Virus record (IMG/VR): IMGVR_UViG_3300022848_000033
Span: 1-35,095 of that record
Reading direction: 5' to 3' (one strand)
DNA length: 35,095 nucleotides
DNA from: a virus
Shown: positions 1 through 17,518 of the stretch, in pieces
How positions within the stretch are numbered: position 1 is the first letter of the stretch
How the letters are laid out: each line of letters begins with the position of its first letter
Made by a program: the position numbers and the translations under genes
Notes under the pieces: model-generated
What the model saw: only the letters and a program-made list of their open reading frames with translations
Told to the model about the DNA's origin: nothing
Databases searched by the model: none

Positions 1-37
1 TACCCACTACCCTAAAGAGGTAGGGGCTTCCGGCTCG
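1..37 (-). mobile_element. IS200/IS605-type end fragment at the window edge
   Basis: Positions 9-31 match 23 bases of the right-end hairpin of the full element at 14689-15031. Positions 3-20 also match the inner part of the left-end hairpin of the same family, so the fragment reads as a hybrid of both ends joined through the shared core CCTCTTTAGGGT. It sits inside the phosphatase-like gene. The rest of the element, if any, lies outside the window, so its orientation and full extent cannot be decided. Confidence 0.5.
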
Positions 38-342
38 CAATGGGTGAACCATCAAAACTTCACAATTATTTTTGTTTTTAAGATAAAAGTCTATTATTTT
101 ATCTGCATGTTCTTGAGAGAAAAGATTTTGTTTTAATTCTTTAATTTCCGATTCGGATAATGATTCTGATGTAAAATCGGTAGAATCAGCATCTGGGAAT
201 GTTATTTGAAGTAAATCTAATCTTTTAACCGCTGATATTTTAGGATGAGATTCATCTTTAAATGTGTTGATTTGAATTCCACACCATATAGATTGTGATT
301 CAAATTCCGTAGCTTCTCTTTTTGAACAAACAACAAACTGCA
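1..342 (-). CDS. Dual-specificity phosphatase-like protein, partial and interrupted at its active-site loop
   Basis: The reading frame starts at ATG 342 behind the Shine-Dalgarno AGGAAGAAG and runs off the left edge of the window. Its start, MQFVVCSKREATEF, the middle DLLQITFPDAD and the helix HADKIIDFYLKNKNN followed by the strand CEVLMVH match the layout of small phage and bacterial tyrosine/dual-specificity phosphatases, where the next residues should be the catalytic loop HCxxGxxRS. Here the sequence instead reads VH-PLRAGSPYLFR, and the DNA that codes for it is an IS200/IS605-type end hairpin. The catalytic Cys and Arg are therefore absent in the visible frame, so the gene is probably inactivated unless the insertion is removed. 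The family assignment rests on pattern recognition from the N-terminal two thirds. It lies 13 bases downstream of the DnaE-like gene and is probably in the same transcript. Confidence 0.55.
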
Positions 343-355
343 TTCTTCTTCCTAG

Positions 356-3016
356 TTAGAGACCTAATTCTTCTTCAGTAGCTATAGGATCAATAGAGAA
401 CCTTAGTTTCATTTGTTTACCACCCCGAGCGGGTGATAAAAATCTAGAGAACAACAAATCATGTTCTATTGGATCAACGTTTGTTATACCTAAACAATAA
501 CAAACAAGTGATCCCACGGCTGAATTGTGAACTAATCCAGATGTAGTGCAGAAATTCTCTTCAGAACCATCCACTTTTAAATCATAGACTTCACTTACAT
601 TACCTAACACTTCTATTGATCTAATTCTTTGCATTATTCCATCTTCAATTGGAATCCAATGATAATTTTGTTCATAATCTCTATTAGATCCAAATTTAAT
701 ATTTTTAGGAGTATTGACGGTAATTTCTACATATTTCTTATTGGTTCTTTTATCTAGTCTATTGTTAAAATTAATACTAGATGGTATTTTCAAACCCCAC
801 AAAAGAAGTCTTAAGCCATGAGCAAGAGATTCTGATGTTGTGGAAAATTTCATTTTATGCAAATCATCATGACCATCTGCTCCTAAATATCCTCTTATAA
901 ACATTTCTTTAGATATTTGACTCTGTTCAAACACCAAGCTAGGTATATGCTTAGTCTGGGAAGTGCATTCGTAAGAATCAAAGAAATATTTATGAAATTC
1001 TAGGATAAATTTATTGTTGATGTGAACTTGAATTAATTTTTTGTTTTTATGTTTATTAATAGTATAATCAGAAATTTTTAAATTATCTAGTTTTCTTATC
1101 AATAAATTCAATCCTGTTTTATCTTCGGAATGAAAACAATACCTAACACTTGATCTTCCATCTAATCTCCACCAACCATCTCCCGCAAATCTTCCTAGAA
1201 GCCTCCACCAATCATTATCTAAATCAATTACTTTATTATTTTTTTTAATAGACCTTACAGAACCAGTTAAAGGATTCAGCCACTTTTGAAGAACATAATC
1301 ACCCTCACAAATTAAATTACTTCCATTACAAAACTGTGACAAGTCTATTGTTTTTATTTCATTTAAGTCACATTTTACATAAGGAACAAACATCCAATCA
1401 CCTTCTTTCAAACTATCGGCTCTTAACCAAGATAATTTTTCATTAGGTTTCTTCCAACTTTTTTCATGTTTCTTAGTTACTTCACTCCAAGAATCATAAC
1501 CATTCGGTCTAGTAGATTTTTCCGCCCAAATCATATGATCAGCAGTTAATCCCAAACCTCTATTATCTCCATAATATGTTTTTATATTTAATAAATCTTC
1601 TTTCACTTCATACTTAAACTTCTTTATTACTTTTCTAAATTTTCCGTCACGATTTAAAACAAAATCACCTTCTTGTACTTTTTCTATAGGTTTTGTTCCA
1701 TCATCAGTAATAATATATGAATTTGGAGATAAACATCCTCGGCCTGGACCTGTGGCTAAACTTGTATTTTTAGAATTGTAAAATGTAGACATAACTCTCC
1801 TAGCTTCATCTACCATCATTTTTTGAATCAAAAAATAACTACAAAAACCCTTTCTGTCAATCAAGTCTATCTCTTCCGTAATTCGATCACGATATAACTT
1901 ATCGAGTGGTATACGACGTTCTTTTACACCCTTCTGTACCGCATTAATTAATACTGTCTTAGCATCAGGTATTTCTGGTAATTTAAGAGATCTATCTAGT
2001 TCAACTCCTGCCGATTTCTCACACAATTTAACCGTATTTAATTTAGCAGTCTCAAACAACTCGTAAGGAATTATTTCTCTATAATCAGAATACCACTTCT
2101 GATTTAATTCCAACTCATTTTTCATCCATAAGTTTTTATCCTGTAATTCAAACAACTCTACATTTTGACTTTGTAATTCTTCAACTTGACTAATCGTTTT
2201 GCCTGAACGACTCATCAACATCAATTGCTGCATGGTACTATCTGATTCATCAGGGTAATGACAGTCATTAGTTACAATTAGCTCTAATCCATGTCTTTGA
2301 TGAGCCTCCATAATAAATTCATCGTAAGGTTTTTGTTTTTCAAAATCTAATAACATAAATTCTAAAACAAAATTATCCTTACCAAATAAATCAATATACT
2401 TTTCAACCATATCATTGGCAGCATCAGGTCCTTCTCTATCAAAAGCCTGTCCTATCTCACCAATGTAACAACATGAAGAGAAAGTAATACCTTCTTTGTA
2501 CTGCCTCAATTGATCGTGATTGACTCTTGGTTTTTTATAAAACCCCTTTGTATATCCCTCTGATGAGAGATTAATTAGATTTTTATAACCAACCTCATTA
2601 TAAGCAATTGCTAAAAGATGAAATGATTTCTTGAAAATCATTTGATCATATTCATTCAAAGACTTCAGATAACTACCAAATTCCGATTTTGGAATATCTA
2701 TTGGTTGTAAAGGATTTACGTATAACTCTATTCCAAATATAGGTTTTGTACCATAAATATCACACGCTTGAATCTGTCTAGGTATAGAGCCTAAAGATCC
2801 ATGATCTGTAATAGTTAAAAATCTTTGATTCTGACTTATAGCTTTTTTTGCATATTCTTCAGGGTATCCATACCCGTCTAATACAGAGAAATGACTGTGA
2901 AGATGAAGGTGTTCAAACCCAACTTCTTTTTTAATGAGAGAATCTATGTGCATCTTGAAGTCCAAAAAAAAGCAACCTTCTCCTGAATAAAAGGAATAAT
3001 ATGGAGAAGATTGCAA
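356..3016 (-). CDS. dnaE: DNA polymerase III alpha-like protein (PHP domain plus start of palm) with an intein; truncated
   Basis: The N-terminal half is a PHP domain ([13 protein letters not shown], then ITDHGSLG) followed by the DnaE segment that ends in GPGRG. After removal of the intein (residues 428-831) the mature sequence reads [23 protein letters not shown], the typical DnaE palm entry, then [11 protein letters not shown]. In DnaE the catalytic motif MPDxDxDF follows directly. Here the protein instead ends after about 20 unrelated residues at a TAA, giving only about 482 extein residues against roughly 1100 in the family. It therefore lacks the polymerase aspartates and could keep at most a PHP nuclease or structural role, unless the rest is encoded elsewhere. 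ATG at residue 22 ([10 protein letters not shown]) is a likelier start than residue 1. An upstream AGGAG lies about 26 bases from it, so the start is uncertain. Confidence 0.85.
   Translation of the reverse strand: [886 protein letters not shown]
524..1735 (-). other. Intein in the DnaE-like gene with LAGLIDADG endonuclease (404 aa)
   Basis: The intein spans residues 428-831. It starts with Cys ([13 protein letters not shown], block A), has the block B motif TADH at residues 491-494, and ends VHN before extein Ser, so all residues needed for protein splicing are visible. The endonuclease part has two LAGLIDADG motifs with both acidic residues: LLGRFAGDG (about 606-614) and [10 protein letters not shown] (about 706-715). 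It therefore looks active both in splicing and in homing. The insertion point is [10 protein letters not shown] in the DnaE palm entry. Confidence 0.9.
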
Positions 3017-3030
3017 ATAATAAACAGTAA

Positions 3031-3252
3031 CTATTCAGTTGTCAATTTCATTTTTTTGTATTTTTCCCAAGCATCATGAACTTTTCCTGCTTCTTGCATG
3101 ATTTCATTTTTCTTGATCTTAAATTCTTCTTTGATTCGATTAATTTCAGATTCTTCTGAAGTTTTAATTTCCTTCAATTTGTCAGAATAACCTTTTAACC
3201 TCATTGAGTATTTTTCGAATTCATCAGAAAGAAATAATTCTACTTCATTCAT
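3031..3252 (-). CDS. Small coiled-coil protein of unknown function
   Basis: A 73-residue, highly charged protein (MNEVELFLSDEFEKY start) with a long predicted helix rich in Lys and Glu and an isoleucine/leucine spacing that suggests a coiled coil. No catalytic motif or membrane segment is visible. Its ATG overlaps the TGA of the upstream gene as ATGA, which points to translational coupling and supports it as a real gene. It lies just upstream of the DnaE-like gene in the same transcript. Function not recognised. Confidence 0.65.
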   Translation of the reverse strand: MNEVELFLSDEFEKYSMRLKGYSDKLKEIKTSEESEINRIKEEFKIKKNEIMQEAGKVHDAWEKYKKMKLTTE

Positions 3253-3851
3253 GTTTCACCATTTAATTTAGAGTAATAATCTTGGTCGAACTTGACATTC
3301 TTCCATTTACCTTTTTCGAAATAAAACCAAAGAATACAATCTTTATTAATAGGGACACTACAGAAAGGTTCTTTAGCTTTAAATCCTGTATTCTTATCAA
3401 TAGGTGAATTCCAACAGCTTTTCCAAACTTGCTCACTCGAAAGTATACCTTTCCTAGAAAAAAGTGCTGCTCTTTTATAATCACCACCAAACATCAAAAA
3501 ATGAGTAGGTTGGATGCATTTTTTTGGTTTGTCAATCTTCCTTCTAGGTATATGTATAGTGTCCCATTTATATTTATGAGCAATTCCATTCCAGCATTTA
3601 TTATTATATGGATCATATCTCCAATTATTCTTGACTTCTACATCAATTCTAATATCTCCACCAAGATATTTATTCTTAGCAAAAAGATCAGTTATCACCC
3701 ATTCAGATTGTTGTTTGGTCTTGAACTGAGTAGATTCCTCTGTATTTTCTTTAATGTCAGAAGATCTTAATGATTCTAAAAACCCAACAGCTACTCGCTT
3801 TGCTTTGTCGTCATATTTGTCATGCGTCTTTTGGTCGAAAGGTTTGTACAT
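3249..3851 (-). CDS. Unknown protein, possible PD-(D/E)XK-type nuclease
   Basis: A soluble protein of 200 residues. The stretch GGDIRIDVEVKNNWRY around residues 65-80 has the D-(x)n-ExK pattern of the PD-(D/E)XK nuclease fold. It is followed by WDTIHIPRRKID and THFLMFGGDYKRAALFSR, which would fit the later strands of that fold, where the chain usually checks substrate or partner. This is only a pattern match; no family was recognised. It ends in an ATGA overlap with the small coiled-coil gene and starts just downstream of the ClpP-like gene, so it belongs to the same minus-strand transcript. Confidence 0.6.
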   Translation of the reverse strand: MYKPFDQKTHDKYDDKAKRVAVGFLESLRSSDIKENTEESTQFKTKQQSEWVITDLFAKNKYLGGDIRIDVEVKNNWRYDPYNNKCWNGIAHKYKWDTIHIPRRKIDKPKKCIQPTHFLMFGGDYKRAALFSRKGILSSEQVWKSCWNSPIDKNTGFKAKEPFCSVPINKDCILWFYFEKGKWKNVKFDQDYYSKLNGET

Positions 3852-3855
3852 ATTA

Positions 3856-4536
3856 TTACTCGAAAAAATAATTTAAAAGGTCTTCATAATTCAGAAAATC
3901 CCCAGCACCATAAATACTATCGGCAAATCCATATTCAATAGACTCTTGAGAATTTAAATACCAATCAGATTTATCTTTCATTTTTCTATCAATGAAAGAT
4001 CTCGTCCTAGACATCGAGTAATTTTTGCTTTTGCAAATTTCACCATCTATAGCTTTTGTAGCTAAAATATCAAGCATTAATCTTCTACCTCTTGCATCTG
4101 CTTGTGCTGCTGACGAAACTTCGATAGAGGTGCCACTGAAGCCCGTATGACCATAATGAATCATGAACTCACAGTTAGGTGTCATAAGCCTTAGATCAGC
4201 CGCCTGAAGGATTATAGCAGACATTGAGGCTGCTTGAGCATATGCTATTACAACCACATGACAACTACAATTAGCTATTGAATCATATATCGCAACTCCA
4301 TCTGACCAACAACCACCAATAGAATGCATATGAACAATAATTGGTTTTTTAGATTGGTGTTCTAAAATATGAAGGTTCTTGTAGAAATTAGTCGCCATTC
4401 TATAGTCAACCCCTGGCTCTTCATCAAAATTCATATGAGGTGAATGAAGATAAATTTCACGAGTGTGATAATTTACTTGATGATTATGTATATCACTAAT
4501 TAATTGTGTTATATCATCTTTTTTAGATGGAGCCAT
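3856..4536 (-). CDS. ClpP-like serine protease
   Basis: A 226-residue member of the ClpP/S14 fold. The oxyanion strand HSIGGCWSDGVAIYD, the nucleophile motif AQAASMSAII (Ser about 104), the His motif FMIHYGHTGF (His about 127) and the acidic helix DWYLNSQESIEYGFAD (Asp about 191) are all present in the family order, so the catalytic triad looks intact. The usual GQAASMGA is changed to AQAASMSA. ClpP-like enzymes act with AAA+ unfoldases or alone as phage-encoded proteases. Here it is the last gene of the PrkA-YeaH-SpoVR run, separated from SpoVR by 60 bases, so a shared transcript is likely. A role in prohead maturation is possible but not shown. Confidence 0.85.
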   Translation of the reverse strand: MAPSKKDDITQLISDIHNHQVNYHTREIYLHSPHMNFDEEPGVDYRMATNFYKNLHILEHQSKKPIIVHMHSIGGCWSDGVAIYDSIANCSCHVVVIAYAQAASMSAIILQAADLRLMTPNCEFMIHYGHTGFSGTSIEVSSAAQADARGRRLMLDILATKAIDGEICKSKNYSMSRTRSFIDRKMKDKSDWYLNSQESIEYGFADSIYGAGDFLNYEDLLNYFFE

Positions 4537-4596: not shown

Positions 4597-7200
4597 TTAA
4601 TTGTAGTTATCTTCAACGTAATCAGATTGCTCGACAACCGTAATATGACCTTTGGTACCCTCACACTTGTACATAAACTCATGATCCCTGTTTCTAGTCA
4701 GTAGATAGACATCTTTTTTCCACATTTTTCGTATTGATTGTAATACTGGTCTGGTGTATTTGTCATTCAAAGGTGTTCCATCATAAGTATGTTCTAACAA
4801 AAGAATATTATTATTTCTATGGTTGTAATCTACTAAATTAATTTCTGGCAAGCCTCCATTTATATGTTTTTCTATCATAGATTTTCTAATCACTTTAGGA
4901 TCTTTAGATTCTATAACATAATCACCATTAGGGTATTTTTTCCATAAAAACAATTCATTCTTTTCTATTATTTCTGGAGTCAGATATTCCATAATAACAG
5001 TAACATCATCATAAAATTTTCTTACTTCAAAAACCTTCTCTTTACCCAAACCTAATTGTTTATCCCAATCTTGTCTTTGTTTTAAATTATCACATTCATT
5101 CCACTCAGTGCCAAATTTGCCTTTATTCCAACGATCTTCAATATCTGACAATATATCAAAACCAACTTTGTAAGGATTAAGACTGTATTTTCCTCCAAGT
5201 ACCATCATTTTATGTTTAGCGTAATCAATAATACCTGAACTATCATATTCTTGACCCAAAGAAGCATAGCCCTGTTTGGCGATTATATTATAATCAACCC
5301 AAGAATTATGATTAGTAAAACCTTGTGCAGAATACTTATGAGAATTTTCTACCGAAAAGTCGTAAACTTCACCTGATTCTATTTCTTCTACCGACAAAAC
5401 AGAATCTTTGGTATCTTCTTCACAAAACCAAGGATGATTAAAAATAGATTTACATAAAATTATTTGTTTTTCTTTATTGTTAAAACCTATCTCTCGGTAA
5501 AATCTTTTTAAGGATTCTCCAAAAATACCTAAACAATAATTACTTTTATCTTTTGGGTTTACTGTAGAAAATATTTTGTAATTTAATAATATGGATTGTA
5601 TTTGACGTATTAATTTTTCACTTGAATCAATAAGTACAATTCTATCTTGGCAGGCACGTCCTTTGGAATCAAAATAAGACGATAAAAACGCAGAAACAAC
5701 AGATTTTGGAGATTTTAAAATCTCTGTCGGAACAACCCTTTCTTTAAGATAAGATAAACCAATCAATTCTGTTAATTTGGGAGAGTCTATAGTAGCTTTC
5801 CAAGTATCGCCACTATTTTTAGAAACTTCTAAACCAAAATCATCCTTAATAGTTTTAACACATTTATTAATAACATTCTTGTCTTTACTTTTAAGTATAA
5901 TATCTTTTGTTTTCTTTATCAAACGACCGCTACCAAGCATAAAACCAATTAACTCAGCAACATCATTTGTCACACTGATGAATTTTTTATCTCCTGATTG
6001 CCACTTAATTTTTTGAGTTCGATTATTCCAAAGTGACCCACTATCGATTAAATTAATCTTTAAACCTCGTGAAACATCTTTCAATTCTACCCAGTTACCG
6101 TTACTATCCAATATTCTATGATTATCACTTCCTATTAAAACATAACCCTTTTTAGTTATAACCTTGAATCGTTTTCTATCATCGAACTTGAACCAATTAA
6201 CAATATTTTGCTTTTCTTTTCCGTCAAAGATTTCCACTTCTAAATTCTTGTCAACAATCTCTTCAGCAGTTAAAATCCCTTTGTTAGTACACATTAATGT
6301 ATCCTTATGGACACATGCATAACCCTCGTTTATGGTCTTGGTTGCTCTTTGAGGAGCAAAGTATAATGCCTCTTCATGTAACATTGACATAATATCACTT
6401 TGCCATGTTTCTAAAGGTGCATTATCTTTAAGGAATCCCATGATGTCTTTAGTAGGCTTGAAAAAAGCTCCAATTTGATTTGCAGCTTCGTATCTTTCGA
6501 TATTTGTCTTTTGCTTATTAATCCAATTACTCGGATTTATGTATTCATCCATGTATTCATGATCTTCACGATATTTCAATCTGTTAGGATGCTTATATTC
6601 TCGTTTGTCTTTTAATTGAAGATTAGAGATTTTTCTTTTTTCCCAGGCTTTAGCAGGATCGATAAGAGTTTCTATTCTTAGTACATCATCTAGGAATTCT
6701 GTTACTTTATTTCTACCCCAACGAGCCATATATTGTCTGATTCTAGAACCATGATTAGCCATGGTGTTAATCATATTTTTAGATGTTTTTTCAAAAAAGA
6801 TGTTATTCTTGAAAAAACAACTATGACCTAGAGCATGAGCTACAACAGTTACGTTATCTAATAATGTATTAGATGACATGCAATATATGTAGCATGGTAC
6901 GGAATTTATGACAAGTTCAAATATTTTTCCACCACCATAAGTGTATCGTTTTTGTATAGCCTCATATTCCATTCCCCATTTCCAATGAGGATATCGACTC
7001 GGAAAACCACCATAAGCAGCAATTTCGCTCATTTCATCATATTTGAGCATTTCAACAATGGAAGGAAAATAATCACAACCAAAATCTTTTACTGCTTGAA
7101 ATATTTCTGGTAATAAAACATTTAATTCTTCGGGTATTGGTGTTCTGGGAGAAGTTTGGTCCCCATAAAGTATTTCATTGCTTTGTATAAATTTAGACAT
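4597..7200 (-). CDS. spoVR: SpoVR family protein with an intein
   Basis: The extein parts (residues 1-295 and 633-867) follow SpoVR closely: FGCDYFPSIVEM, FPSRYPHWKWGMEYE, GGKIFELVINSVPCYIYCM, HALGHSCFFKNN, EEALYFAPQRATKTINEGYA and, after the intein, SWVDYN. SpoVR (YcgB in E. coli) is encoded by bacteria together with PrkA and YeaH, and its biochemical role is not settled. Here the three lie side by side in that order of transcription, and the SpoVR start overlaps the YeaH stop by 8 bases. The intein must splice for a normal product, since it splits the conserved NEG-A-S(W/Y) motif. Length without the intein is about 530 residues, usual for the family. Confidence 0.93.
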   Translation of the reverse strand: MSKFIQSNEILYGDQTSPRTPIPEELNVLLPEIFQAVKDFGCDYFPSIVEMLKYDEMSEIAAYGGFPSRYPHWKWGMEYEAIQKRYTYGGGKIFELVINSVPCYIYCMSSNTLLDNVTVVAHALGHSCFFKNNIFFEKTSKNMINTMANHGSRIRQYMARWGRNKVTEFLDDVLRIETLIDPAKAWEKRKISNLQLKDKREYKHPNRLKYREDHEYMDEYINPSNWINKQKTNIERYEAANQIGAFFKPTKDIMGFLKDNAPLETWQSDIMSMLHEEALYFAPQRATKTINEGYACVHKDTLMCTNKGILTAEEIVDKNLEVEIFDGKEKQNIVNWFKFDDRKRFKVITKKGYVLIGSDNHRILDSNGNWVELKDVSRGLKINLIDSGSLWNNRTQKIKWQSGDKKFISVTNDVAELIGFMLGSGRLIKKTKDIILKSKDKNVINKCVKTIKDDFGLEVSKNSGDTWKATIDSPKLTELIGLSYLKERVVPTEILKSPKSVVSAFLSSYFDSKGRACQDRIVLIDSSEKLIRQIQSILLNYKIFSTVNPKDKSNYCLGIFGESLKRFYREIGFNNKEKQIILCKSIFNHPWFCEEDTKDSVLSVEEIESGEVYDFSVENSHKYSAQGFTNHNSWVDYNIIAKQGYASLGQEYDSSGIIDYAKHKMMVLGGKYSLNPYKVGFDILSDIEDRWNKGKFGTEWNECDNLKQRQDWDKQLGLGKEKVFEVRKFYDDVTVIMEYLTPEIIEKNELFLWKKYPNGDYVIESKDPKVIRKSMIEKHINGGLPEINLVDYNHRNNNILLLEHTYDGTPLNDKYTRPVLQSIRKMWKKDVYLLTRNRDHEFMYKCEGTKGHITVVEQSDYVEDNYN
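5305..6315 (-). other. Intein in SpoVR with decayed LAGLIDADG endonuclease (337 aa)
   Basis: The intein spans residues 296-632. It begins with Cys (CVHKDTLMCTNKGILTAEEI), carries a block B variant SDNH at residues 358-361, and ends GFTNHN before extein Ser, with VYDFSVENSHKY as block F. Splicing residues look intact. The two LAGLIDADG helices are GFMLGSGR (about 419-426) and AFLSSYFDSKGR (about 504-515). The first has Ser where the catalytic Asp should be, so the endonuclease is probably inactive while splicing is kept. Insertion is at NEGYA|SWVDY. Confidence 0.88.
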
Positions 7201-8359
7201 TTTTCTTTCCTAAGAAATCCATTATAACATTTTTCTTAAGCATATCCAATTCTTCTACTGAAGAAAACCCATCAATACTGGATGTAATTAAATTACCGAA
7301 ACTTTCTACTTTTTCTTCAATATCTAAAACATTCTTTATGCTACCTAAATATCTTGAAGGCTTAACCTGACAAACACCCACCAAGTTAACAATTTCTGGA
7401 CCTAATCTTCCCTTCAATATATTAATAAATTGAGGATTGTCAGAAGGTGTATTCTCTCCATCAGTAAAATAAAACAAGTAAATATTCCATTGTAATGGAT
7501 TGTATCTATTCTCTAGCTGCTTAGAAACAAGGTCTAAAGACGAAGAACATAAAGTGCCACCACCTTTTCTTAATTTATAAAAAGTAGCTTCATCAACCTC
7601 TCTAGCTGTATAGTCGTGCCAAATATAACACTTTTCTGTTTTTTCATAAAAACGAGAAACCCAAGCACTGATCCACCAACACAAGTCACTAATTATATCA
7701 CACTTTTCTTCATCCATCGAATAAGATCCATCTCTAGCAAAAAAGATAACAGCCTTACTTGAAGGTATTTTTATTTCATTCCACTGCCTGTATCTTTTAT
7801 CAGAATTGATAGGCAATAGTAGTTTTATATCTTCATTACATCCTGGTATTTTATACTTCTTGTCTATAGAACCAGTTGCACACTGACGTTTCATTGTTTG
7901 ACGAAGTGTTTTCCTAGTATGTCTTAATGACTCAGGACCTGTTTTCGATACAGAATTATACTTTATTTTTGTATCTTCGAAAGTATCAGACACTTTATGT
8001 TTTAGATTAGGCAAATCTAATTCTTCTTGTAGAAGATCTAATACATAATTAACATCTACTTCAATTTCTACACCATCACCACTACCTTCTCCTACCTTGT
8101 TAGGCTTACCTTCCCCTGGTTTGGGTTCTTTGGCTACGATCTGACCTTCTTCTCCTTTTCCAACTCCTACTCCATTACCAGAATCTCCCTTTACTATAAA
8201 AGGTATTCTAATTCTATTAGCTTTAACAATTATTTTACCATCCTTGCCTGTTTTTCCGACTATCTCTCCACTACCAATCCATTCCTTGATTTTCTTTTTA
8301 ACTTTTCCTGAATAAATGTCATTAAAACTAGATCGGTCTTCATCAATTCTTCTGGTCAA
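7193..8359 (-). CDS. yeaH: YeaH/DUF444 family protein with a von Willebrand A-like domain
   Basis: A 388-residue YeaH homologue. The N-terminus (DRSSFNDIYSGKVKKKIKEW, then GKDGKIIVKANRIRIPF) is the DUF444 signature. A Gly-rich acidic linker follows at residues 58-96, then HTRKTLRQTMKRQ. The vWA-like half begins near residue 200 with a metal-site motif D210-G-S212-Y-S214 (DxSxS), so metal binding is probably retained. In bacteria yeaH is co-transcribed with prkA (yeaG), and the kinase and YeaH act together in nutrient stress; the exact reaction is unknown. Here it sits 22 bases after the PrkA stop and overlaps the SpoVR start by 8 bases, so the three are clearly one operon. Confidence 0.92.
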   Translation of the reverse strand: MTRRIDEDRSSFNDIYSGKVKKKIKEWIGSGEIVGKTGKDGKIIVKANRIRIPFIVKGDSGNGVGVGKGEEGQIVAKEPKPGEGKPNKVGEGSGDGVEIEVDVNYVLDLLQEELDLPNLKHKVSDTFEDTKIKYNSVSKTGPESLRHTRKTLRQTMKRQCATGSIDKKYKIPGCNEDIKLLLPINSDKRYRQWNEIKIPSSKAVIFFARDGSYSMDEEKCDIISDLCWWISAWVSRFYEKTEKCYIWHDYTAREVDEATFYKLRKGGGTLCSSSLDLVSKQLENRYNPLQWNIYLFYFTDGENTPSDNPQFINILKGRLGPEIVNLVGVCQVKPSRYLGSIKNVLDIEEKVESFGNLITSSIDGFSSVEELDMLKKNVIMDFLGKKNV

Positions 8360-8381
8360 TTTGCTGACTCCATATTATAAA

Positions 8382-10472
8382 TTAAGATTCATCATCTTCA
8401 ACGTCACCACGGGCTGATATTGACGAAACATAGTCTAATACATCTGTTGCTGACTGTTCATTATACCCATAATCTTTAATTAATCTCGACTTAATAGTAT
8501 CGATTTTCTCTTGTATATCTTTATCGACTACAGAAGATGCGTTTTTGTGTAATGAAGATAGATTAATCGTATTCTTAGTATCTTCATATAATTTTTTCTC
8601 TAAAGCCTTCTTTAACTCTTCATTACTCTTCCAAGTAAAATCTTTCTTCTTCATAGAAAGATTTCCAATGAATGCTGCAATCGAACGTCGAAACTGATCT
8701 ACACCAGTGGAAGGGATGCCAATCTTTTCCTCAATAGACCTCATGAGATTTTCATCAGGATCTTGTTCTTCTTCTGTAATAGGATTAATAACTCTTACTC
8801 CATCAATATAAGCACTAACATTGTCAATATAATTAGAACACAACCTAACAATTGCATCTTCATCACCTACAAGTGCTCTTTGGACTTCCTTCTTCAAAAT
8901 CTCATCAAGTTCCTTCCTAGCTAAATCTACACACTTATTATAATGTTTTTTAGCCTCTTTGTCGTTAATTAATGATTGATTATCAATTCCTTTTTTAATA
9001 GCATTCAAGACCATAAAAGGATTGATGTAATCATGACGACTGGATAAACACCCGCTTATTTTGTCTTGAGTGTACCTACAACTCATACCACCAGCCATAC
9101 CTTCTTCTGGTGAGGTATCCATGAGTTCACGGACTGAATCTTGTGTATAACCATGAACATTTCGACCATCATATAATTTAGCTTTAGTAACCAAATCAAT
9201 CTTACCAGTATGATCGTCATCGTATCTTGTCATGACACTCCACAAAGAAGCAATTTCCAATGTGTGTGGAGCTATATGTTGTTTAACCTTATCTTTTCCG
9301 TAATAACTATCAAGAACTTGTAGTTCATCTGACCATTTCAATAAATAAGGAACATCAATTTTAAATGTTCTGTCCCTTAATGCTTCCATTGTCACATCAG
9401 CCTTTAGTTTTTCAAATTCTGGAGAATTGGAATGACCACACAATACGGTATCTAAAGAAATTTGCGGGAACTTCTTAGGTTTGATACTTTGTTCTTGAGA
9501 AGCACCCAAAATATCATAAAGAAATTCTTTTGCTAATTTAAGAACTTCAATTAATTCAAACATGCCTCGATTGGCACAGCAGAATTCTCCATCGAAATCA
9601 AAACCTCGTGGATCAGAGTCTGATCCATAGTGAGATAGTTTACTCCAATTAATATCACCTGTTAATTCCGAACTATCTTGATTTTTTTCGTCTTTAGGTT
9701 GGAAAGTGGCAATACCTACCCTGTCAGCTTCGCTATGCGTCTTCCTAACGATTCTAATGTGATTAGATATAACTTTGCCCCAATCTCCATCATAGTGCTT
9801 TAGAAGCATAGACATGAACTTCTTAGACCTTGGATCTAAGTCATTATTACAAATCAATTTATATTGAGTTGTTCTTAATTTTTTATCAGTTTGTTCAAGA
9901 AGTATTTTGTTTAAATCATCTAAAATTGATTGTCTAGCCCCATTTTCTTTAGGAACCAAACAAAGAGGATCTTGTTTCATTGGAGATTCATCTTGGTCAT
10001 GAATATAAATAGATTCTGTTGAAAGATTAACCCACTTAAAAGTGTACCATGCACCTTCATCCGTTAGACTATATTTTTCTAACCCTTTCTTTAACAATCG
10101 ACAGATAGTAGATTTTGCTGATCCAACAGGTCCATGAAGGAGAAGAAAACGTTTTTCAGGTCCAAATCCACCTGCTGCACCTTTGAAAAACTCGACTAAA
10201 GCATGAAGTGTAGGCTTGATACCAACAATTGGAATATCAGAATCCGAGAAAAAATGATAATCATTATATTTATTTCTCAATTCTTCTACTGTTGAGTAGC
10301 CTTTAGAAACAACCATATCATAAATGTATTGATAGGCAGTTCTTGCTAATTTAGGATTTTGATAAAGTTGATCCATGTATTCATCAAAAGTTATTTCTTG
10401 ATGAATTAAACTGTATTTGTCTTTATCGAATTTTGCAGAAATTTTCGAAAGATGGTTATTTTTGGTTGGCAT
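8382..10472 (-). CDS. prkA: PrkA-like serine protein kinase (AAA+ plus C-terminal domain)
   Basis: A 696-residue PrkA/YeaG homologue. The N-terminal FDEYMDQLYQNPKLARTAYQYIYDM and the segment VGIKPTLHALVEFFKGAAGGFG lead into Walker A GPVGSAKST (about residues 114-122). The middle holds the AAA+ lid region, including CRYTQDKISGCLSSRHDYINPF, as in PrkA. The C-terminal part ends with an acidic tail. In bacteria PrkA is a serine kinase with an AAA+ module, linked to sporulation or starvation responses. This is the first gene of the minus-strand trio with YeaH and SpoVR. No unusual truncation is visible; the family is usually 630-690 residues. That a phage carries it intact suggests it reprograms host stress signalling, which is inference. 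Confidence 0.93.
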   Translation of the reverse strand: MPTKNNHLSKISAKFDKDKYSLIHQEITFDEYMDQLYQNPKLARTAYQYIYDMVVSKGYSTVEELRNKYNDYHFFSDSDIPIVGIKPTLHALVEFFKGAAGGFGPEKRFLLLHGPVGSAKSTICRLLKKGLEKYSLTDEGAWYTFKWVNLSTESIYIHDQDESPMKQDPLCLVPKENGARQSILDDLNKILLEQTDKKLRTTQYKLICNNDLDPRSKKFMSMLLKHYDGDWGKVISNHIRIVRKTHSEADRVGIATFQPKDEKNQDSSELTGDINWSKLSHYGSDSDPRGFDFDGEFCCANRGMFELIEVLKLAKEFLYDILGASQEQSIKPKKFPQISLDTVLCGHSNSPEFEKLKADVTMEALRDRTFKIDVPYLLKWSDELQVLDSYYGKDKVKQHIAPHTLEIASLWSVMTRYDDDHTGKIDLVTKAKLYDGRNVHGYTQDSVRELMDTSPEEGMAGGMSCRYTQDKISGCLSSRHDYINPFMVLNAIKKGIDNQSLINDKEAKKHYNKCVDLARKELDEILKKEVQRALVGDEDAIVRLCSNYIDNVSAYIDGVRVINPITEEEQDPDENLMRSIEEKIGIPSTGVDQFRRSIAAFIGNLSMKKKDFTWKSNEELKKALEKKLYEDTKNTINLSSLHKNASSVVDKDIQEKIDTIKSRLIKDYGYNEQSATDVLDYVSSISARGDVEDDES

Positions 10473-10555: not shown

Positions 10556-10882
10556 TTAATCATCTAATTTAATTTTTCCATAAGGGGTTGGACCCATATG
10601 AGATTCTTCTTCTGCTTTTTTACGTTGATCTCGTATACCACCTTTTTTATCAATTCCATGGTGATATCGATAATCATGACCTTTATCACCACTATTCCAG
10701 CGGTCAGTATCAACAGGATTACTAAAATTAAAATTAGGCTTACTGATGAGTAAATTTTTCTTTTTAGAACCACATTTATCACATTTTGCGGCTTTTAAAT
10801 TAGGGCTTCCTTCTATGAAGGATACTGTAAAGTATTCATATTCTGAATTGCACTTTTTACATTCTAAGTCGTAAGTAGGAAT
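10556..10882 (-). CDS. FmdB-like zinc ribbon protein, apparent ATT start
   Basis: A frame of 108 residues without an ATG near its natural start. It reads (I/M)PTYDLECKKCNSEYEYF, then CDKCGSKKK, then a polar tail that ends in GPTPYGKIKLDD. The opening PTYD-x2-C-x2-C and the second C-x2-C are the FmdB-type zinc ribbon, whose members start MPTY. Here the codon at the Met position is ATT (10880-10882), placed six bases after AGAGG. ATT is a known but rare start (infC). Internal ATG codons lie only far downstream, so ATT initiation or a recent ATG to ATT change are the two readings. It lies between the PrkA gene and a small acidic gene, on the same strand. Confidence 0.7.
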   Translation of the reverse strand: MPTYDLECKKCNSEYEYFTVSFIEGSPNLKAAKCDKCGSKKKNLLISKPNFNFSNPVDTDRWNSGDKGHDYRYHHGIDKKGGIRDQRKKAEEESHMGPTPYGKIKLDD

Positions 10883-10903
10883 AATACACCTCTATTGTTT
10901 AAA

Positions 10904-11170
10904 TTATTTTTCATTTTCTTCTTCTGAGAAGAGATCCTTTAATATAAAGAAAGTATCAACAACTTTATTTAACTTATAATCTTCTGATCTAAAACACCAA
11001 AAAATGCTTTTCTCGCATAATCTTATCGAATATTCTAATAATTCAGAATTTCTAGTTCCTTGCATATAAACATAATCAACAGATACCAATGATTCCATTG
11101 CTTCATTGATCATTTCATCAAATTCATTTTCATTTTCATTTTCTTCACCGTCAAAATAGAAATCTCTCAT
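10904..11170 (-). CDS. Small acidic protein of unknown function
   Basis: The start was set at ATG 11170 because AAGGAG stands five bases before it (a longer frame upstream has no such site). The product is 88 residues, begins MRDFYFDGEENENENEFDE, and is strongly acidic at both ends. The centre (YSIRLCEKSIFWCFRSEDYKLN) is hydrophobic enough to form a small globular core. No motif recognised. It is 22 bases from the upstream gene and likely in one transcript with it. Confidence 0.65.
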   Translation of the reverse strand: MRDFYFDGEENENENEFDEMINEAMESLVSVDYVYMQGTRNSELLEYSIRLCEKSIFWCFRSEDYKLNKVVDTFFILKDLFSEEENEK

Positions 11171-11192
11171 GTTAACTCCTTGATGAAAATCA

Positions 11193-11669
11193 TCATAATA
11201 AGTTATAATACTTTTCACATTGACTCCACATTTTTAATGTGGCATGTTCATTTACAGTATTACAACTTTTTTTAATTTTTTTAGTAAATGCAAAAGGTGC
11301 TTTGTTACTATTTAGCCATACAGAACTATTAAAATCTCCAACCCCTTCTTTATAGTCAACTAAACATGTCATATCTTCTGTTTTAGAACCACTTGGACCT
11401 AATAAATTATCGTGATAGTGTCTTACTGCTAAAGTAGTCGCATTATGTAAATAATCAAAATTTTCAGGTTTTTTAGATATTTGTATATTAAATTTATTAA
11501 CCCAATTAAAACAATCCATATTCACATAACTATTGTCAATTACAAAAATAATCTTTGAATTTGGAAGAATTTTTACCAAAGAATACCAAAGACCATATGC
11601 CATCCATCGATTCTGGATACTATTCGTAAATTTAGCTGCTATTTCTAAATTATGTCCCGTGTTTAACAT
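11193..11669 (-). CDS. Unknown 158-residue protein
   Basis: The start at ATG 11669 is preferred over an earlier TTG because GGAG precedes it at a proper distance. That GGAG lies in the 3' arm of a 12-bp hairpin (11672-11699), so translation may depend on the hairpin opening. The protein starts MLNTGHNLEIAAKFTNSIQNRW and has the pattern of an alpha/beta fold: KIIFVIDNSYVNMDCFNWVNKF, then LAVRHYHDNLLGPSG, then DMTCLVDYKEGVGDF. It may resemble a nucleotide-sugar or Rossmann-type enzyme, but I could not assign a family. Confidence 0.6.
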   Translation of the reverse strand: MLNTGHNLEIAAKFTNSIQNRWMAYGLWYSLVKILPNSKIIFVIDNSYVNMDCFNWVNKFNIQISKKPENFDYLHNATTLAVRHYHDNLLGPSGSKTEDMTCLVDYKEGVGDFNSSVWLNSNKAPFAFTKKIKKSCNTVNEHATLKMWSQCEKYYNLL

Positions 11670-11671
11670 AA

Positions 11672-11699
11672 AAAACTCCAATTAAAAAATTGGAGTTTT
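11672..11699 (-). terminator. Hairpin terminator that also covers the next gene's ribosome site
   Basis: Perfect 12-bp inverted repeat AAAACTCCAATT / AATTGGAGTTTT with a four-base loop. Read on the minus strand it is followed by a run of T, so it fits a rho-independent terminator after the exported-protein gene. The 3' arm holds the GGAG of the gene starting at 11669. Confidence 0.65.
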
Positions 11700-13112: not shown

Positions 13113-13316
13113 ATGAATAAAATTATTATGGCAACATTGACTGTTGCATGTTTAACTTTTGTCGGTTGTAATGACAAAAATTGTGACGAAAACGGATGTG
13201 TTATTTCTGAAAACGTCGTCTGTCCAGAAGGATGTGAAAACTGCTTGTGTGCAGAAGGCGTAGAATGCCCAGAAGAATGCAAAGATTGTAATTGCATTTG
13301 CTGCAAAGCTAGCTAG
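13113..13316 (+). CDS. Cysteine-rich, metallothionein-like lipoprotein or secreted peptide
   Basis: The start at ATG 13113 follows GGAG by six bases. The product is 67 residues: a short hydrophobic signal (MNKIIMATLTVACLTFVGC) ending in a near-lipobox FVGC, then a mature part of about 49 residues with 13 Cys. Two similar units are visible, CPEGCENCLC and CPEECKDCNC, ending in ICC. The spacing resembles metallothioneins or zinc/copper-binding peptides, and many acidic residues lie between the Cys. It is the only plus-strand gene in this part and overlaps the HldE-like stop by 8 bases in a convergent way. Metal binding in the periplasm or envelope is inferred. Confidence 0.65.
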   Translation: MNKIIMATLTVACLTFVGCNDKNCDENGCVISENVVCPEGCENCLCAEGVECPEECKDCNCICCKAS

Positions 13317-14616
13317 TTTTAATCCTGTTAATTAATTCAGAACTAGAATAGTTCTTGTACATAGGAACAGGATAATATTTTATAAGTTCAGATCCAATTG
13401 GGTTTGTGTATTCAGAGCCCTTGATTAAACAATCAGGGGCTATTTTTTTAATTGAATCCAAAGGTGTGTCTTCTTCGAATAAACAAATATAATCAACCAT
13501 TGGTAATTGCATTAACATATCAATCCTATATTCTTGATTGTTAATTAATGGATGATTTTTATTTTGTCTTCTAACACTTTCGTCAGAATTTAACCCTATT
13601 ACTAATTTATCTGCTTTTTCTTTAGCAAAATTAAAAGAATGTAAATGCCCTGGTGTGATTAAATCAAAACAACCATTTTGATATGCTAAAGTGAAATCCC
13701 TATCTTTTAATAATTCTGGCTTAATTAGTTTTCCTGAAATTTCACAAGGATAAACTGGTTTTTGATCTTTTTGGACATATTGCCTACAAACATTGTTTGC
13801 CATCTTTGCAGATTCTACGATTGAATTACCTTGCAAATAAGCTACGGTTAAAACACCAACGAAAAGATCACCACAACCAGTGACGCTTTGCACTTTACTG
13901 ATTTGTTTAGTTTCAAATTCAAAATATTCTTTTTTGTTCAATCCGTAGATAGATCCTGCCCCAGATGTCACTACTACATGTTCACATCTAGTTTTTCTCT
14001 TGATTACTCTACATTGCTTTTCTTTATCGGTTTCTCCCGTCAATTCATAAGCTTCTTTATGATTAGGTTTGAAGATGTCACAACCTTTCCACTTCTCTAA
14101 TGGACCTTTTTTAGGATCTACCACCTTCAAGCATTTCATTTTCATAACTACTTCTACATCATTAAGAAACCCTTTGTTGTAATCTGATATTATTAAAGCA
14201 TCGAATTTATAGTCAATGAATTTTTCATAATGAATAAAATTTGATATACCTAAGGTATAAACAATAGGTTTTTCATGATCAATTCTACAAAAAGGAACCT
14301 TTCCGTCAGATAACCTAATCTTCTTAGGTATTTGTATTTTTTTAATTTTGCTAAATTGATAATCAATATCAAAATCTTCTAACACATCTTTAAATTCAAT
14401 ATTACAAGGTCCTATGTAATAGTTGTTTTTATTCCAAGGTTTTAGAAGATATGCCACATTTGCTGCACCACCTGGATAGGTTTCTATAATATCATTTTGG
14501 TTAAGATAAACAGGTATTGGATTTTCGGGAGAAACCCGATTAAACTCTACTTGGAGGTATTGATCAATAACTCCATCACCTAAAATACCTACCTTATAAT
14601 TACTTAAACCTAACAT
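13309..14616 (-). CDS. hldE: HldE-like bifunctional sugar kinase / nucleotidyltransferase
   Basis: The 435-residue protein has a PfkB-type kinase at 1-285: PGGAANVAYLL (about 48-58), LIISDYNKGF (141-150) and the catalytic VTGCGDLFVG with Asp 250. A cytidylyltransferase domain follows at 308-435: YQNGCFDLITPGHLHSF, then LVIGLNSDESVRR and SSSELINRIK. In HldE (heptose-phosphate kinase/adenylyltransferase) this pair supplies ADP-heptose for LPS. The nucleotidyltransferase motif HxGH is TPGH here (321-324), so the first His is lost. The kinase GAGD is GCGD but keeps the Asp. The enzyme may therefore act mainly as a kinase or on a different substrate. It could serve host surface change or a phage sugar pathway. 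Confidence 0.85.
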   Translation of the reverse strand: MLGLSNYKVGILGDGVIDQYLQVEFNRVSPENPIPVYLNQNDIIETYPGGAANVAYLLKPWNKNNYYIGPCNIEFKDVLEDFDIDYQFSKIKKIQIPKKIRLSDGKVPFCRIDHEKPIVYTLGISNFIHYEKFIDYKFDALIISDYNKGFLNDVEVVMKMKCLKVVDPKKGPLEKWKGCDIFKPNHKEAYELTGETDKEKQCRVIKRKTRCEHVVVTSGAGSIYGLNKKEYFEFETKQISKVQSVTGCGDLFVGVLTVAYLQGNSIVESAKMANNVCRQYVQKDQKPVYPCEISGKLIKPELLKDRDFTLAYQNGCFDLITPGHLHSFNFAKEKADKLVIGLNSDESVRRQNKNHPLINNQEYRIDMLMQLPMVDYICLFEEDTPLDSIKKIAPDCLIKGSEYTNPIGSELIKYYPVPMYKNYSSSELINRIKTS

Positions 14617-15031: not shown

Positions 15032-15576
15032 AGAAGTTTATGTCTGATTAATCGAACTACTTGCATTGCATCTTCTACTGCATGATGTGTCACCACACTA
15101 GGTAATCCTGCTCTTTCTAAACATGTCGACAGATTAGGAACATCTTTATCATCTTTAGTAACATACATGGAACCAACGTCTAATGCTCTATGAGAAGCAT
15201 TAATATCTTTCCAATCATAAATCATATCTAGAAATTTAGAGTCGAACATACCAAAGTTTTTACCTGCAAATACTACTTTTTCTATATTATTCTCATCAAG
15301 CCATTTCCCGAAACTTTCAGCTAACTCTTTAGGAGAGATAACCATATCAGTACCTATAGCATCTCTCATCGCTAAAATAGTGTCTGTATTCATCGATAAT
15401 GCAAATATTTCACCTTTGATCCTATTATCTTCTTCAAGTAGATATTTGTGATAAGTAGGGAGTGTGTCAAGAGGACGAGAATCTTGTAGATCATCGATAA
15501 TTGCCCCAATTTCAAGTATTTGACCTATCCAGGGATTAAGAGAAGTAGTTTCTAAGTCTAAAGAACAATAATGCAT
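15028..15576 (-). CDS. DnaQ-like 3'-5' exonuclease (DEDDh)
   Basis: 182 residues. Exo I is LDLETTSLNPWIGQILEIGA (Asp 7, Glu 9), Exo II lies in VVFAGKNFGMFDSKFLD, and Exo III is HHAVEDAMQVVRL with the His-x4-Asp pair. The fold is that of RNase T, oligoribonuclease and the DnaQ proofreading subunit. Length fits a free-standing exonuclease. The stop codon is formed by the end of the IS-type element: with the element it is CTG-TGA, and without it would be CTA-TAA, giving the same protein end (HKLL). Substrate (RNA or DNA) cannot be told from sequence. Confidence 0.88.
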   Translation of the reverse strand: MHYCSLDLETTSLNPWIGQILEIGAIIDDLQDSRPLDTLPTYHKYLLEEDNRIKGEIFALSMNTDTILAMRDAIGTDMVISPKELAESFGKWLDENNIEKVVFAGKNFGMFDSKFLDMIYDWKDINASHRALDVGSMYVTKDDKDVPNLSTCLERAGLPSVVTHHAVEDAMQVVRLIRHKLL

Positions 15577-15587
15577 AGGGGAACCTA

Positions 15588-15595
15588 TATAAATA
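15588..15595 (+). promoter_or_regulatory. T4-late-promoter-like TATAAATA
   Basis: The octamer TATAAATA stands 16 bases before the ATG of the 504-residue gene, with GAGAGATAAAATG as its ribosome site. It fits a T4-type late promoter by position and sequence. However, in DNA this AT-rich about a dozen chance copies are expected in the window on both strands, so the call is weak. Confidence 0.25.
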
Positions 15596-15611
15596 AAAGT
15601 AGAGAGATAAA

Positions 15612-17126
15612 ATGAATTTTTCCAAATGGCTATTTTACATAATTGAAGGGCAACTTCAAGATCAGACCTTGAAAATGGTTAATGGTGATCAAAATATATT
15701 CCAACAAATACAAAGTATCTCTCCCGAACCGAAATTCATGCCAATTATTGCTTATTTTCATATATATGAAAAAATAGCATTAAGCCAAATCCGAACAGAA
15801 ATAGGGCGATATATTGAATATGTAAAAAACAAAAAAATACCAATGGTTCAAATAACAAAGCGAGGAGCCTTTTTAGAAAACAAGCCTATTAACTGGATTG
15901 GTTTAACCGAAAAAATACATGCAATTGAAGAAAGAGAAAATTTTATTAACAGAGATGCTAATAAAGATGTCAATGACGGAGTTCCAGTAAAAGGTAAACC
16001 TATTTTCAGTAAGAATAATATTGATGTTTATGAAGCTCACGGTAGAGATAAATGCATTCAATATGGAACAGGATACAGCTTTTGTATTAGTAAACCAGGG
16101 AATACAATGTGGCAAAGCTATCGAGATATACAAGCTAGTACATTCTATTTTGTGTTTGATAGAAATAGAAGTAAACAAGATCCATTACATGTTGTAGTTG
16201 TAGATAGTACCGAAAATGGATGGAGTTTAACTGATAGTAATAATGATACAGGTAATATTGCTCAGTTCGGGTCCGATTCAGAAGCTTACATTTCACATCT
16301 AGTATCAAAAGGAATTCCGAAAGAAATATTTAAGCATATAGAACATGATGAACAAGAAAAACTAGATAAAGAAAAATTAGGTGAACACATAGAAGATCTT
16401 GAGTATTTTGTGAAAGAATTGAGTTATGAAGAAAAAAGCAAATATATTGGACGAGGTCATGATTTAACAGATTCTCAATTTAAATACTTAATCGATAATA
16501 ATTTTGATGATCTAATTAATCAATATATAACAAACGGAGAGCCTTTAAATAAAAAAGAGCTTGTTCTGTTAAAAAACAAGCTCCTGAAATCTTACTTTAG
16601 AACCAGAATAAAAACAGCTACAAAAACTGGTTTTTATAAAATTTCCAAGGATGAATTAGAGTATTTTGACAAAAAAATGTTCTTAAGTAATTTACAAATA
16701 TTTAATCTTAATCATTTGATGGATGTTTTTGCAGGAACATACCCTAACCTCATTTTAACCGATTCTGATATAGCTGATACTGCAAATAAAATTTATGAAA
16801 TCGCATCGAAAAATCCTTTTAATGCTAAAAATATGAATTATTTCTTTGAAGATCCAAGAGTAATAAAAGCTCTAGTGAGAACCGGGGAAGATGATGTTCT
16901 ATTTGTTGGTGATCGATTTATTCGTGGAGCAATGTTCACAGGAATAAGTAAGTTTATGACAAGAGCAGCTTTAGGTAAAATTAACGATATTGATCCTGAT
17001 ATTGTCGAGAAATTTGTAGTAAAACTTTACAAGAAATATCTCCCTAACAAGAAAAAATTTCTAATGGAAGATTTTGAAGATTATTTTAAACTAATAGGCA
17101 AAGAACATTTATTGGACACACTATGA
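15612..17126 (+). CDS. Large phage protein of unknown function with the F-x-x-W leader
   Basis: 504 residues. The N-terminus MNFSKWLFYIIEGQ carries the leader shared by several genes here. The core (about 150-225) contains GRDKCIQYGTGYSFCISKPG, N-x-MWQSYRD, FYFVFDRNRS and HVVVVDSTENGWSLTDSNN, a conserved G-T-(x)n-C-I-(x)n-Y-R pattern that I associate with large phage proteins but cannot give a function. The rest is a long helical, charged region. The stop overlaps the ATG of the GNAT gene (ATGA-type overlap), so both are one transcript. With the leader and a possible late promoter it is a candidate internal virion protein. Confidence 0.8.
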   Translation: MNFSKWLFYIIEGQLQDQTLKMVNGDQNIFQQIQSISPEPKFMPIIAYFHIYEKIALSQIRTEIGRYIEYVKNKKIPMVQITKRGAFLENKPINWIGLTEKIHAIEERENFINRDANKDVNDGVPVKGKPIFSKNNIDVYEAHGRDKCIQYGTGYSFCISKPGNTMWQSYRDIQASTFYFVFDRNRSKQDPLHVVVVDSTENGWSLTDSNNDTGNIAQFGSDSEAYISHLVSKGIPKEIFKHIEHDEQEKLDKEKLGEHIEDLEYFVKELSYEEKSKYIGRGHDLTDSQFKYLIDNNFDDLINQYITNGEPLNKKELVLLKNKLLKSYFRTRIKTATKTGFYKISKDELEYFDKKMFLSNLQIFNLNHLMDVFAGTYPNLILTDSDIADTANKIYEIASKNPFNAKNMNYFFEDPRVIKALVRTGEDDVLFVGDRFIRGAMFTGISKFMTRAALGKINDIDPDIVEKFVVKLYKKYLPNKKKFLMEDFEDYFKLIGKEHLLDTL

Positions 17127-17518
17127 ATTTTAATCAATGGATGCTAGTAGAAAATAACACTGATGTACAGATATCAACACCTATAAGAAAGCATTCTAGT
17201 TTTTCTGAAGAATATGAATATACCACAAATGGCGGTATTTTAAGGATAGTAAATCCTAATTCTCAATGGTGGAAATACAGTGTTGTCGAGACTCACGTTC
17301 AAGAGGATTATCGAAGACAAGGAATCGCTTCTATTCTTATAGATAAAGCTCTTGAACACCTCAAAGGAAAAGGAGATATTGCTGCTCAAACTTCGACTGA
17401 TGCAAGCATAATGTTGTTTTGGAATAAAGGTTTTCGTAATCAAAGCAATAATTTAGAAGAAGCTTTAAACACTAGAAAAGAAAATTCTTCTGTTTTGTTG
17501 ATTTATAAAAATAGTTAA
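17123..17518 (+). CDS. GNAT-family N-acetyltransferase with the shared leader
   Basis: 131 residues, opening MNFNQWMLVENN. The acetyl-CoA site follows the GNAT pattern: VVETHVQEDYRRQGIASILI (motif A with R/Q-x-x-G-x-A), then AQTSTDASIMLFWNKGFR (motif B). The substrate is unknown. It overlaps the 504-residue gene upstream by four bases. A GNAT enzyme with a packaging-type leader suggests an enzyme delivered with phage DNA, which is inference. Confidence 0.85.
   Translation: MNFNQWMLVENNTDVQISTPIRKHSSFSEEYEYTTNGGILRIVNPNSQWWKYSVVETHVQEDYRRQGIASILIDKALEHLKGKGDIAAQTSTDASIMLFWNKGFRNQSNNLEEALNTRKENSSVLLIYKNS

Follow-up and report, generated by a model that had tools for sequence, protein, structure and literature searches.

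Comparative sequence analysis of a core PrkA-YeaH-SpoVR operon in a lineage of huge tailed phages

The proteins PrkA, YeaH and SpoVR are widespread in bacteria and are associated with known phenotypes, and their chemistry is disputed or unknown. The YeaG (PrkA) and YeaH proteins of E. coli act jointly in nitrogen starvation, with both domains of YeaG being of importance (PMC4664914), and the PrkA protein of Bacillus influences sporulation and osmotic stress (PMC13001217). The published results on phosphotransfer by PrkA are in conflict: residue K426 was mutated as the 'kinase' residue of E. coli YeaG (PMC4664914), whereas work published in 2026 described a bacterial PrkA that oligomerises on ATP and displays negligible kinase and protease activity (PMC13001217).

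Individual members of these families have already been annotated in phages, namely in Thermus phages, in the Ralstonia jumbo phage RsoM2USA, which lists SpoVR (ORF28) and PrkA (ORF30) (PMC8504454), and as PHROGs families of unknown function. The isolated and culturable Thermus phages phiYS40, TMA, phiLo, MN1 and Lalka8 contain clustered relatives of YeaH, SpoVR and PrkA (annotated as 'SpoVR' and 'serine kinase'), and the uncultured phages LR756502, LR756504 and LR745206, with genomes of 634-642 kb, likewise encode PrkA, YeaH and SpoVR. Additionally, group 2.2 jumbo phages encode a MoxR AAA+ protein along with a vWA protein fused to a metallopeptidase, a system for which a role in virion assembly has been proposed (PMC7824862).

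The stretch of DNA analyzed here (the window) is a virus record of 35,095 bases that carries the genes of the trio on the minus strand between positions 4597 and 10472 (Table 1). In keeping with the first-pass annotation, the genes encoding PrkA, YeaH and SpoVR are arranged in this order and are followed by a gene for a ClpP-like protease, and the Pfam matches coincide with these genes. The PrkA-type protein matched AAA_PrkA (1e-68) and the PrkA C-terminal family (1.4e-71), both far over the cut-off, the YeaH protein matched DUF444 (2.2e-60), and the SpoVR protein matched the profiles SpoVR (4.8e-96) and SpoVR_C and contains the invariant HxxxH and NEG motifs of the family. The range of E-values from 1e-60 to 1e-96, along with a gene order shared unchanged by 65 distinct viral loci, indicates that the trio of the window is not a chance match. 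A comparison with the solved structure 9xip ('Serine protein kinase') gave 609 bits for the window PrkA, and the YeaH protein matched TIGR02877 (YhbH) and PRK05325 below their curated cut-offs, the NCBIfam equivalog cut-offs being unmet. The MIDAS motif DxSxS...T...D of YeaH, which had been described as intact, is indeed present as D-G-S-Y-S followed by the downstream motifs GGGT and FTDG. The genes had also been described as overlapping, which applies to YeaH and SpoVR (8 nt, positions 7193-7200) but not to PrkA and YeaH, which are separated by 22 nt.

Table 1. Features of the PrkA-YeaH-SpoVR region and its conserved neighbourhood in the window.
Feature	Position	Strand	Remarks
DnaE N-terminal part, PHP and start of Pol III alpha	356..3016	-	own intein, about aa 428-831; phage marker gene
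Conserved ~75-aa protein, ClpP-DnaE interval	3031..3252	-	34/69 loci; profile match in window
ClpP-like serine protease	3856..4536	-	Pfam CLP_protease 1.3e-23; triad read from sequence
SpoVR precursor	4597..7200	-	867 aa; extein 530 aa (aa 1-295 and 633-867); Pfam
Intein within SpoVR	5305..6315	-	337 aa (aa 296-632); Cys1, terminal His-Asn, Ser+1
SpoVR candidate metal residues H122, H126, E292; Asp636 replacing bacterial His			conservation and fold search, intein-free relative
YeaH/YhbH (DUF444) vWA-like protein	7193..8359	-	388 aa; TTG start; MIDAS DGSYS
PrkA-type AAA+ protein	8382..10472	-	696 aa; Walker A GPVGSAKS; Pfam
FmdB-like zinc-ribbon protein, directly upstream of PrkA	10556..10891	-	63/69 loci; profile match 5e-34
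Conserved ~100-aa (101-aa) protein	10904..11218	-	64/69 phage loci; 0/80 bacterial loci
Conserved ~195-aa protein family	11193..11681	-	58/69 loci; profile match 3e-40; 0/80 bacterial loci
HldE-like bifunctional heptose kinase/adenylyltransferase	13309..14616	-	61/69 loci; NCBIfam HldE 5e-55, below cut-off

The E. coli proteins belong to the same families and share the Walker A lysine (K116 of YeaG), which is invariant in 13 of 13 aligned PrkA proteins, but the window PrkA is only 24% identical to YeaG, and the spoVR homolog ycgB is not linked to yeaG-yeaH in E. coli. Moreover, neither K426 nor R232 of YeaG is conserved in the window PrkA. The position of K426 is occupied by Asp470 in the window and by aspartate (once serine) in the aligned window-type and Thermus phage proteins, and the consensus of the bacterial sister sequences likewise shows aspartate. 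Owing to this replacement and to the negligible activity of bacterial PrkA (PMC13001217), intact kinase sites cannot be claimed for the phage PrkA proteins, and kinase activity cannot be assumed.

The distribution of the trio was examined by scans of IMG/VR, which yielded 32 SpoVR relatives and 132 PrkA relatives, and 69 distinct phage PrkA sequences and their loci were compared. The search of phage genomes for the same gene order, as suggested in the first-pass annotation, revealed that 65 of these 69 loci contain all three genes on one strand, arranged as PrkA-YeaH-SpoVR, the other four being cut by the end of the record. DnaE was used as an independent bait; a single DnaE sequence recovered only 6 loci, and an alignment was used instead, which provided 64 loci in which the sequence upstream of dnaE spans 9.5 kb or more. 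The full trio was present in 52 of them, a part of it in five where the stretch ends, and two have the trio elsewhere on the contig (L218/L014 and L221/L007), so that the trio, complete or in part, is represented on the contigs of 59 of the 64 loci. SpoVR was not found anywhere in the other five records, which are fragments of 24-104 kb, and four of these keep the flanking genes; the corresponding phages may have the trio at another location or lack it, and it may thus be dispensable in some phages.

With respect to genome size, SpoVR is present once each on contigs of 459 and 527 kb, and the trio is found on a contig of 436 kb. A tail sheath protein was detected in 7 of 21 related records and a terminase above the cut-off in three, including the 595-kb phage LR756511; since many of the 21 records are fragments, the absence of these markers from the others means little. 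The related contigs are long, up to 527 kb, and viral, so that a host island, which had been named as a refuting case, or a prophage-border artefact is ruled out for the window. The Pfam matches and these contigs bear out the initial description of a complete, intact module on phage DNA.

Quick maximum-likelihood trees with SH-aLRT support placed the window-type phage proteins in one group each, with values of 88 for PrkA, 100 for SpoVR and 100 for YeaH. The divergence of the three proteins follows that of DnaE (Mantel r 0.82-0.88) as closely as they follow each other (0.82-0.89), and 0 of 999 permutations gave values as high. The tracking of DnaE argues for an old, vertically inherited phage operon, and the trio was most likely taken up as one unit long ago and then passed down with the phage. 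Recent separate captures from hosts, the outcome that had been named as contrary to a phage module, are ruled out by the joint old phage clade and by the tracking of DnaE. Taken together, the comparative data show PrkA-YeaH-SpoVR as an intact core operon, vertically inherited, of a huge tailed phage lineage.

It is conceivable that a bacterial operon was caught by chance and is little used, or that a prophage border was recorded as phage DNA, as bacteria possess operons with the same arrangement and such artefacts do occur in databases. An example is the record of Enterobacter phage LAU1 (L117, MN688132.1), which opens with host yeaG-yeaH (positions 1-3308; 97.7% to E. coli YeaG) and probably represents a prophage border; this artefact is unrelated to the trio of the window. 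An origin as such cargo appears extremely improbable, being contradicted by the old joint phage clade, by motifs and gene order that are kept among phages with a median pairwise PrkA identity of 67%, by the tracking of DnaE and by the kept splicing motifs of the SpoVR intein.

The nearest bacterial proteins among the best 80 PrkA matches, which served as the cellular relatives in the comparison, are 45-52% identical to the phage PrkA and derive from Planctomycetota, Myxococcota, Bdellovibrionota, Chloroflexota and others; 53 of these 80 loci show the same gene order. The bacterial operons thus consist of the same families in the same order, and some of their SpoVR proteins have an intein at the same site as the phage protein, but the phage SpoVR differs by an aspartate instead of histidine at position Glu+7 and by the motif HAxGH instead of HVxGH, and the phage loci contain an upstream block that is phage-only. 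The Thermus phages differ more strongly, with the order YeaH-SpoVR-PrkA, identities of about 21-35%, portal or terminase genes adjoining in some of them and a separate placement in the trees, which is uncertain because of long branches. The 634-642 kb phages encode an E. coli-type PrkA (62-65% to YeaG) and a SpoVR that keeps the histidine, which marks a separate acquisition. With the reservation on the Thermus phages, these placements are read as at least three recruitments of the trio by phages. The end branches of the window proteins are longer than those of their nearest relatives (0.6 vs 0.11-0.14 for PrkA), which suggests faster change in the window lineage.

According to the first-pass annotation, the module might steer the stress state of the host or be reused for steps of the phage itself. 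Steering would mean that the trio puts or holds the host in a starvation-like state of low metabolism, as YeaG and YeaH do in E. coli; the joint role of yeaG and yeaH in adaptation to nitrogen starvation (PMC4664914), the involvement of Bacillus PrkA in sporulation and osmotic stress (PMC13001217) and the shared gene order of the bacterial relatives fit this explanation, and the E. coli-type copies of the 634-642 kb phages could act on host clients. It is nevertheless regarded as unlikely, since the trio was not seen together with any stress regulator or sporulation gene and instead follows the phage polymerase and carries the phage-only His-to-Asp change and upstream block. Reuse by the phage fits better with genes that are inherited with the polymerase and located in a block of replication and nucleotide-metabolism genes. 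The core status of all three genes in the phage lineage suggests a shared activity that is useful outside starvation and sporulation, and finding spoVR in viromes should not lead to its classification as a 'sporulation' auxiliary gene, as was done in PMC8940887.

Conserved residues of SpoVR outline a candidate active site. Residues H127, H131 and N296-E297-G298 (numbering of the intein-free relative L011) are invariant in 62 SpoVR proteins, and the HxxxH motif and the NEG glutamate match the ligand layout of gluzincins, i.e. HExxH and a glutamate of a later helix (HEYFH...KEGLT in PepN). The catalytic glutamate of HExxH is replaced by alanine in the phage proteins (HAxGH) and by valine in the bacterial ones (HVxGH); peptidase activity is doubtful because this glutamate is absent, and SpoVR may not cut anything. 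At position Glu+7, aspartate was present in 52 of 52 intein-free sequences of the phage clade and histidine in 42 of 42 bacterial sequences (aspartate in 0 of 42), so that this exchange is fixed in the phage clade and affects the candidate active site. The histidine of the NEGWAxxxH motif is thus replaced in the window SpoVR, and Thermus phages vary at this position. The change is taken as a variant that does not exclude the protein from the SpoVR family, the histidine not being an agreed defining feature.

A sequence search of the PDB yielded no SpoVR structure, and AlphaFold models were generated from the intein-free relative L011 (pLDDT 84.7; core 86.7). Foldseek searches with these models gave no significant match. 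Structural re-alignment of the core model with VIA-align listed 50 matches, almost wholly HExxH metallopeptidases (zincins) and their kin. The putative lipoprotein 3o0y (Z 11.3, rmsd 3.3, 182 aligned), the putative lipoprotein 3u24 (Z 10.1), M32 carboxypeptidases (8.1-9.3), M1 (8.3), the ACE family (about 6-7.7) and BepA (5.9) were among them, the Foldseek E-values being not significant, and mostly helical models can attain such Z values without kinship. The models are therefore suggestive only of SpoVR being a zincin relative, and the sequence layout of the invariant residues backs this assignment. A sequence link between SpoVR and M1 peptidases was rejected, as hhalign of SpoVR versus PepN gave none, and a Pfam scan of the 62 SpoVR proteins detected no metallopeptidase family.

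The same region of SpoVR is marked by inteins. The window protein is split straight after the NEGYA motif (NEGYA|SWVD) by an intein that had gone unmentioned in the first-pass annotation; it was recognized by the Pfam profiles Intein_splicing and LAGLIDADG_3 and by TIGR01445, the scores for Intein_splicing and TIGR01445 being slightly under the cut-offs. Removal of these 337 residues by splicing would leave the mature SpoVR of 530 aa. Both catalytic acids of the LAGLIDADG motifs are replaced in the window (GSG and FDSKG vs GDG and FDCDG in relatives), and the homing endonuclease is probably dead; that the splicing motifs are kept despite this loss is the pattern expected if spliced SpoVR is needed. 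Inteins are present in about 17 distinct phage SpoVR proteins, either at site a (in the NPCYIY strand, which precedes the HxxxH helix) or at site b (after NEGxA, beside the invariant glutamate), and in some at both. The NEG site is shared by three bacterial SpoVR proteins and by phage LR756504, and since inteins are commonly inserted where a needed protein is most conserved, this recurrence independently points to NEG as a functional motif. The E. coli-type SpoVR of the 636-kb phage LR756504.1 (L118, positions 15276-17186) contains a 129-aa mini-intein devoid of an endonuclease. The PrkA protein of L013 is also intein-bearing. A literature search for papers combining 'intein' and 'SpoVR' found none.

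The retention of all three core genes in a phage lineage would tie the proteins into one machine, and a working model can be formulated from their families. PrkA would be an ATP-hydrolysing AAA+ ring, YeaH would be its vWA-type partner and use the MIDAS metal to bind PrkA or the substrate, and SpoVR would be a zincin-fold protein that holds a metal on H122, H126 and E292, binds or cuts the substrate and becomes functional only once the intein next to the metal site has spliced itself out. The trio might thus resemble MoxR AAA+/vWA chaperone machines in its action, with the metallopeptidase-like part as a subunit of its own; during infection it would remodel a protein complex or bring it to maturity, and PrkA would not have to be a kinase for this. 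The likeliest clients would be phage proteins of the replisome or the virion, with host proteins as second choice. The view that the trio is an ATP-driven remodelling machine for phage or host proteins is considered evenly balanced. The more specific proposition that huge phages made the bacterial trio a dedicated ATP-driven machine for assembly or maturation, in which SpoVR, a zincin relative, would bind a metal at a site retuned from His to Asp, and that at least three phage lineages independently recruited the same set, is put forward tentatively.

The MoxR system of jumbo phages resembles this arrangement in combining an AAA+ motor, a vWA partner and a metallopeptidase-like part, but its motor is MoxR and not the PrkA AAA+ protein, and its peptidase is fused to the vWA protein. 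The AAA matches of the window PrkA in Pfam comprise only AAA_PrkA and weak general AAA families, so that it is not of MoxR type, and the likeness would concern the mode of action only. In Thermus phage Lalka8, the gene order is portal, minor head, vWA, SpoVR and PrkA, followed by TerL, and the set of phiYS40 is located near TerL; the position of the Lalka8 set between the minor head gene and TerL favours an assembly role in that phage. The neighbours of the trio in the window lineage are replication and nucleotide-metabolism genes and not head genes. The culturable Thermus phages, with their smaller version of the system, offer a genetic system for its function. The SpoVR HxxxH motif, the NEG glutamate and the His/Asp switch stand out as testable residues. 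The interest of the locus lies in its core status in huge phages, its repeated recruitment and the intein-marked, altered centre of SpoVR.

A ClpP homolog and then DnaE often occur downstream of the trio in related loci, the homolog being found in 28 related trio loci, many loci being cut. The ClpP-like protein of the window shows a Ser-His-Asp triad in the motifs AASMS, MIHYGH and KSDW, solved ClpP proteins are its nearest structures, and its best match is the PHROGs head maturation protease family, with the NCBIfam cut-offs for ClpP and head maturation not being reached. The frequent position of this gene as the next in the operon, and the suggestion that the ClpP of jumbo phages targets host proteins (PMC7824862), could be accommodated by a machine that acts, possibly jointly with the neighbouring ClpP, in the unfolding or degradation of defence or replication proteins of the host. 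Such a role in counter-defence or clearance of host proteins is judged quite improbable, since counter-defence genes are usually patchy whereas the trio is near-universal in its clade. The genes are also free of PADLOC model matches, a weak argument given that PADLOC holds defence and not counter-defence proteins; a defence system was rejected as a candidate for the same lack of a match.

The conserved block extends upstream of PrkA to the HldE-like enzyme of the ADP-heptose pathway, which represents its upstream end. The FmdB-like gene is clearly conserved although ATG, GTG or TTG is missing at the expected start place, and it probably uses a non-standard start. Downstream of the trio, the DnaE proteins of the window, L011, L021 and L023 all stop after LLFSRFLSPARGGK..KLRFS, short of the palm catalytic Asp region; this is apparently a conserved split polymerase with the second half encoded elsewhere. 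An Rfam scan of the window for RNA elements that might explain the split DnaE gave no match. In related huge phages, tmRNA genes (RF00023) are located downstream of dnaE (L021:17658-18011 and L223:16756-17110). Positions 21153-21803 of the window encode a conserved protein that combines a TnsA-like/endonuclease I domain with a part resembling a zinc finger. Two further inteins of the window reside in DnaE (524-1735, approximate) and in a Hel308-like helicase (26976-28217, approximate), giving a total of three inteins in 35 kb.
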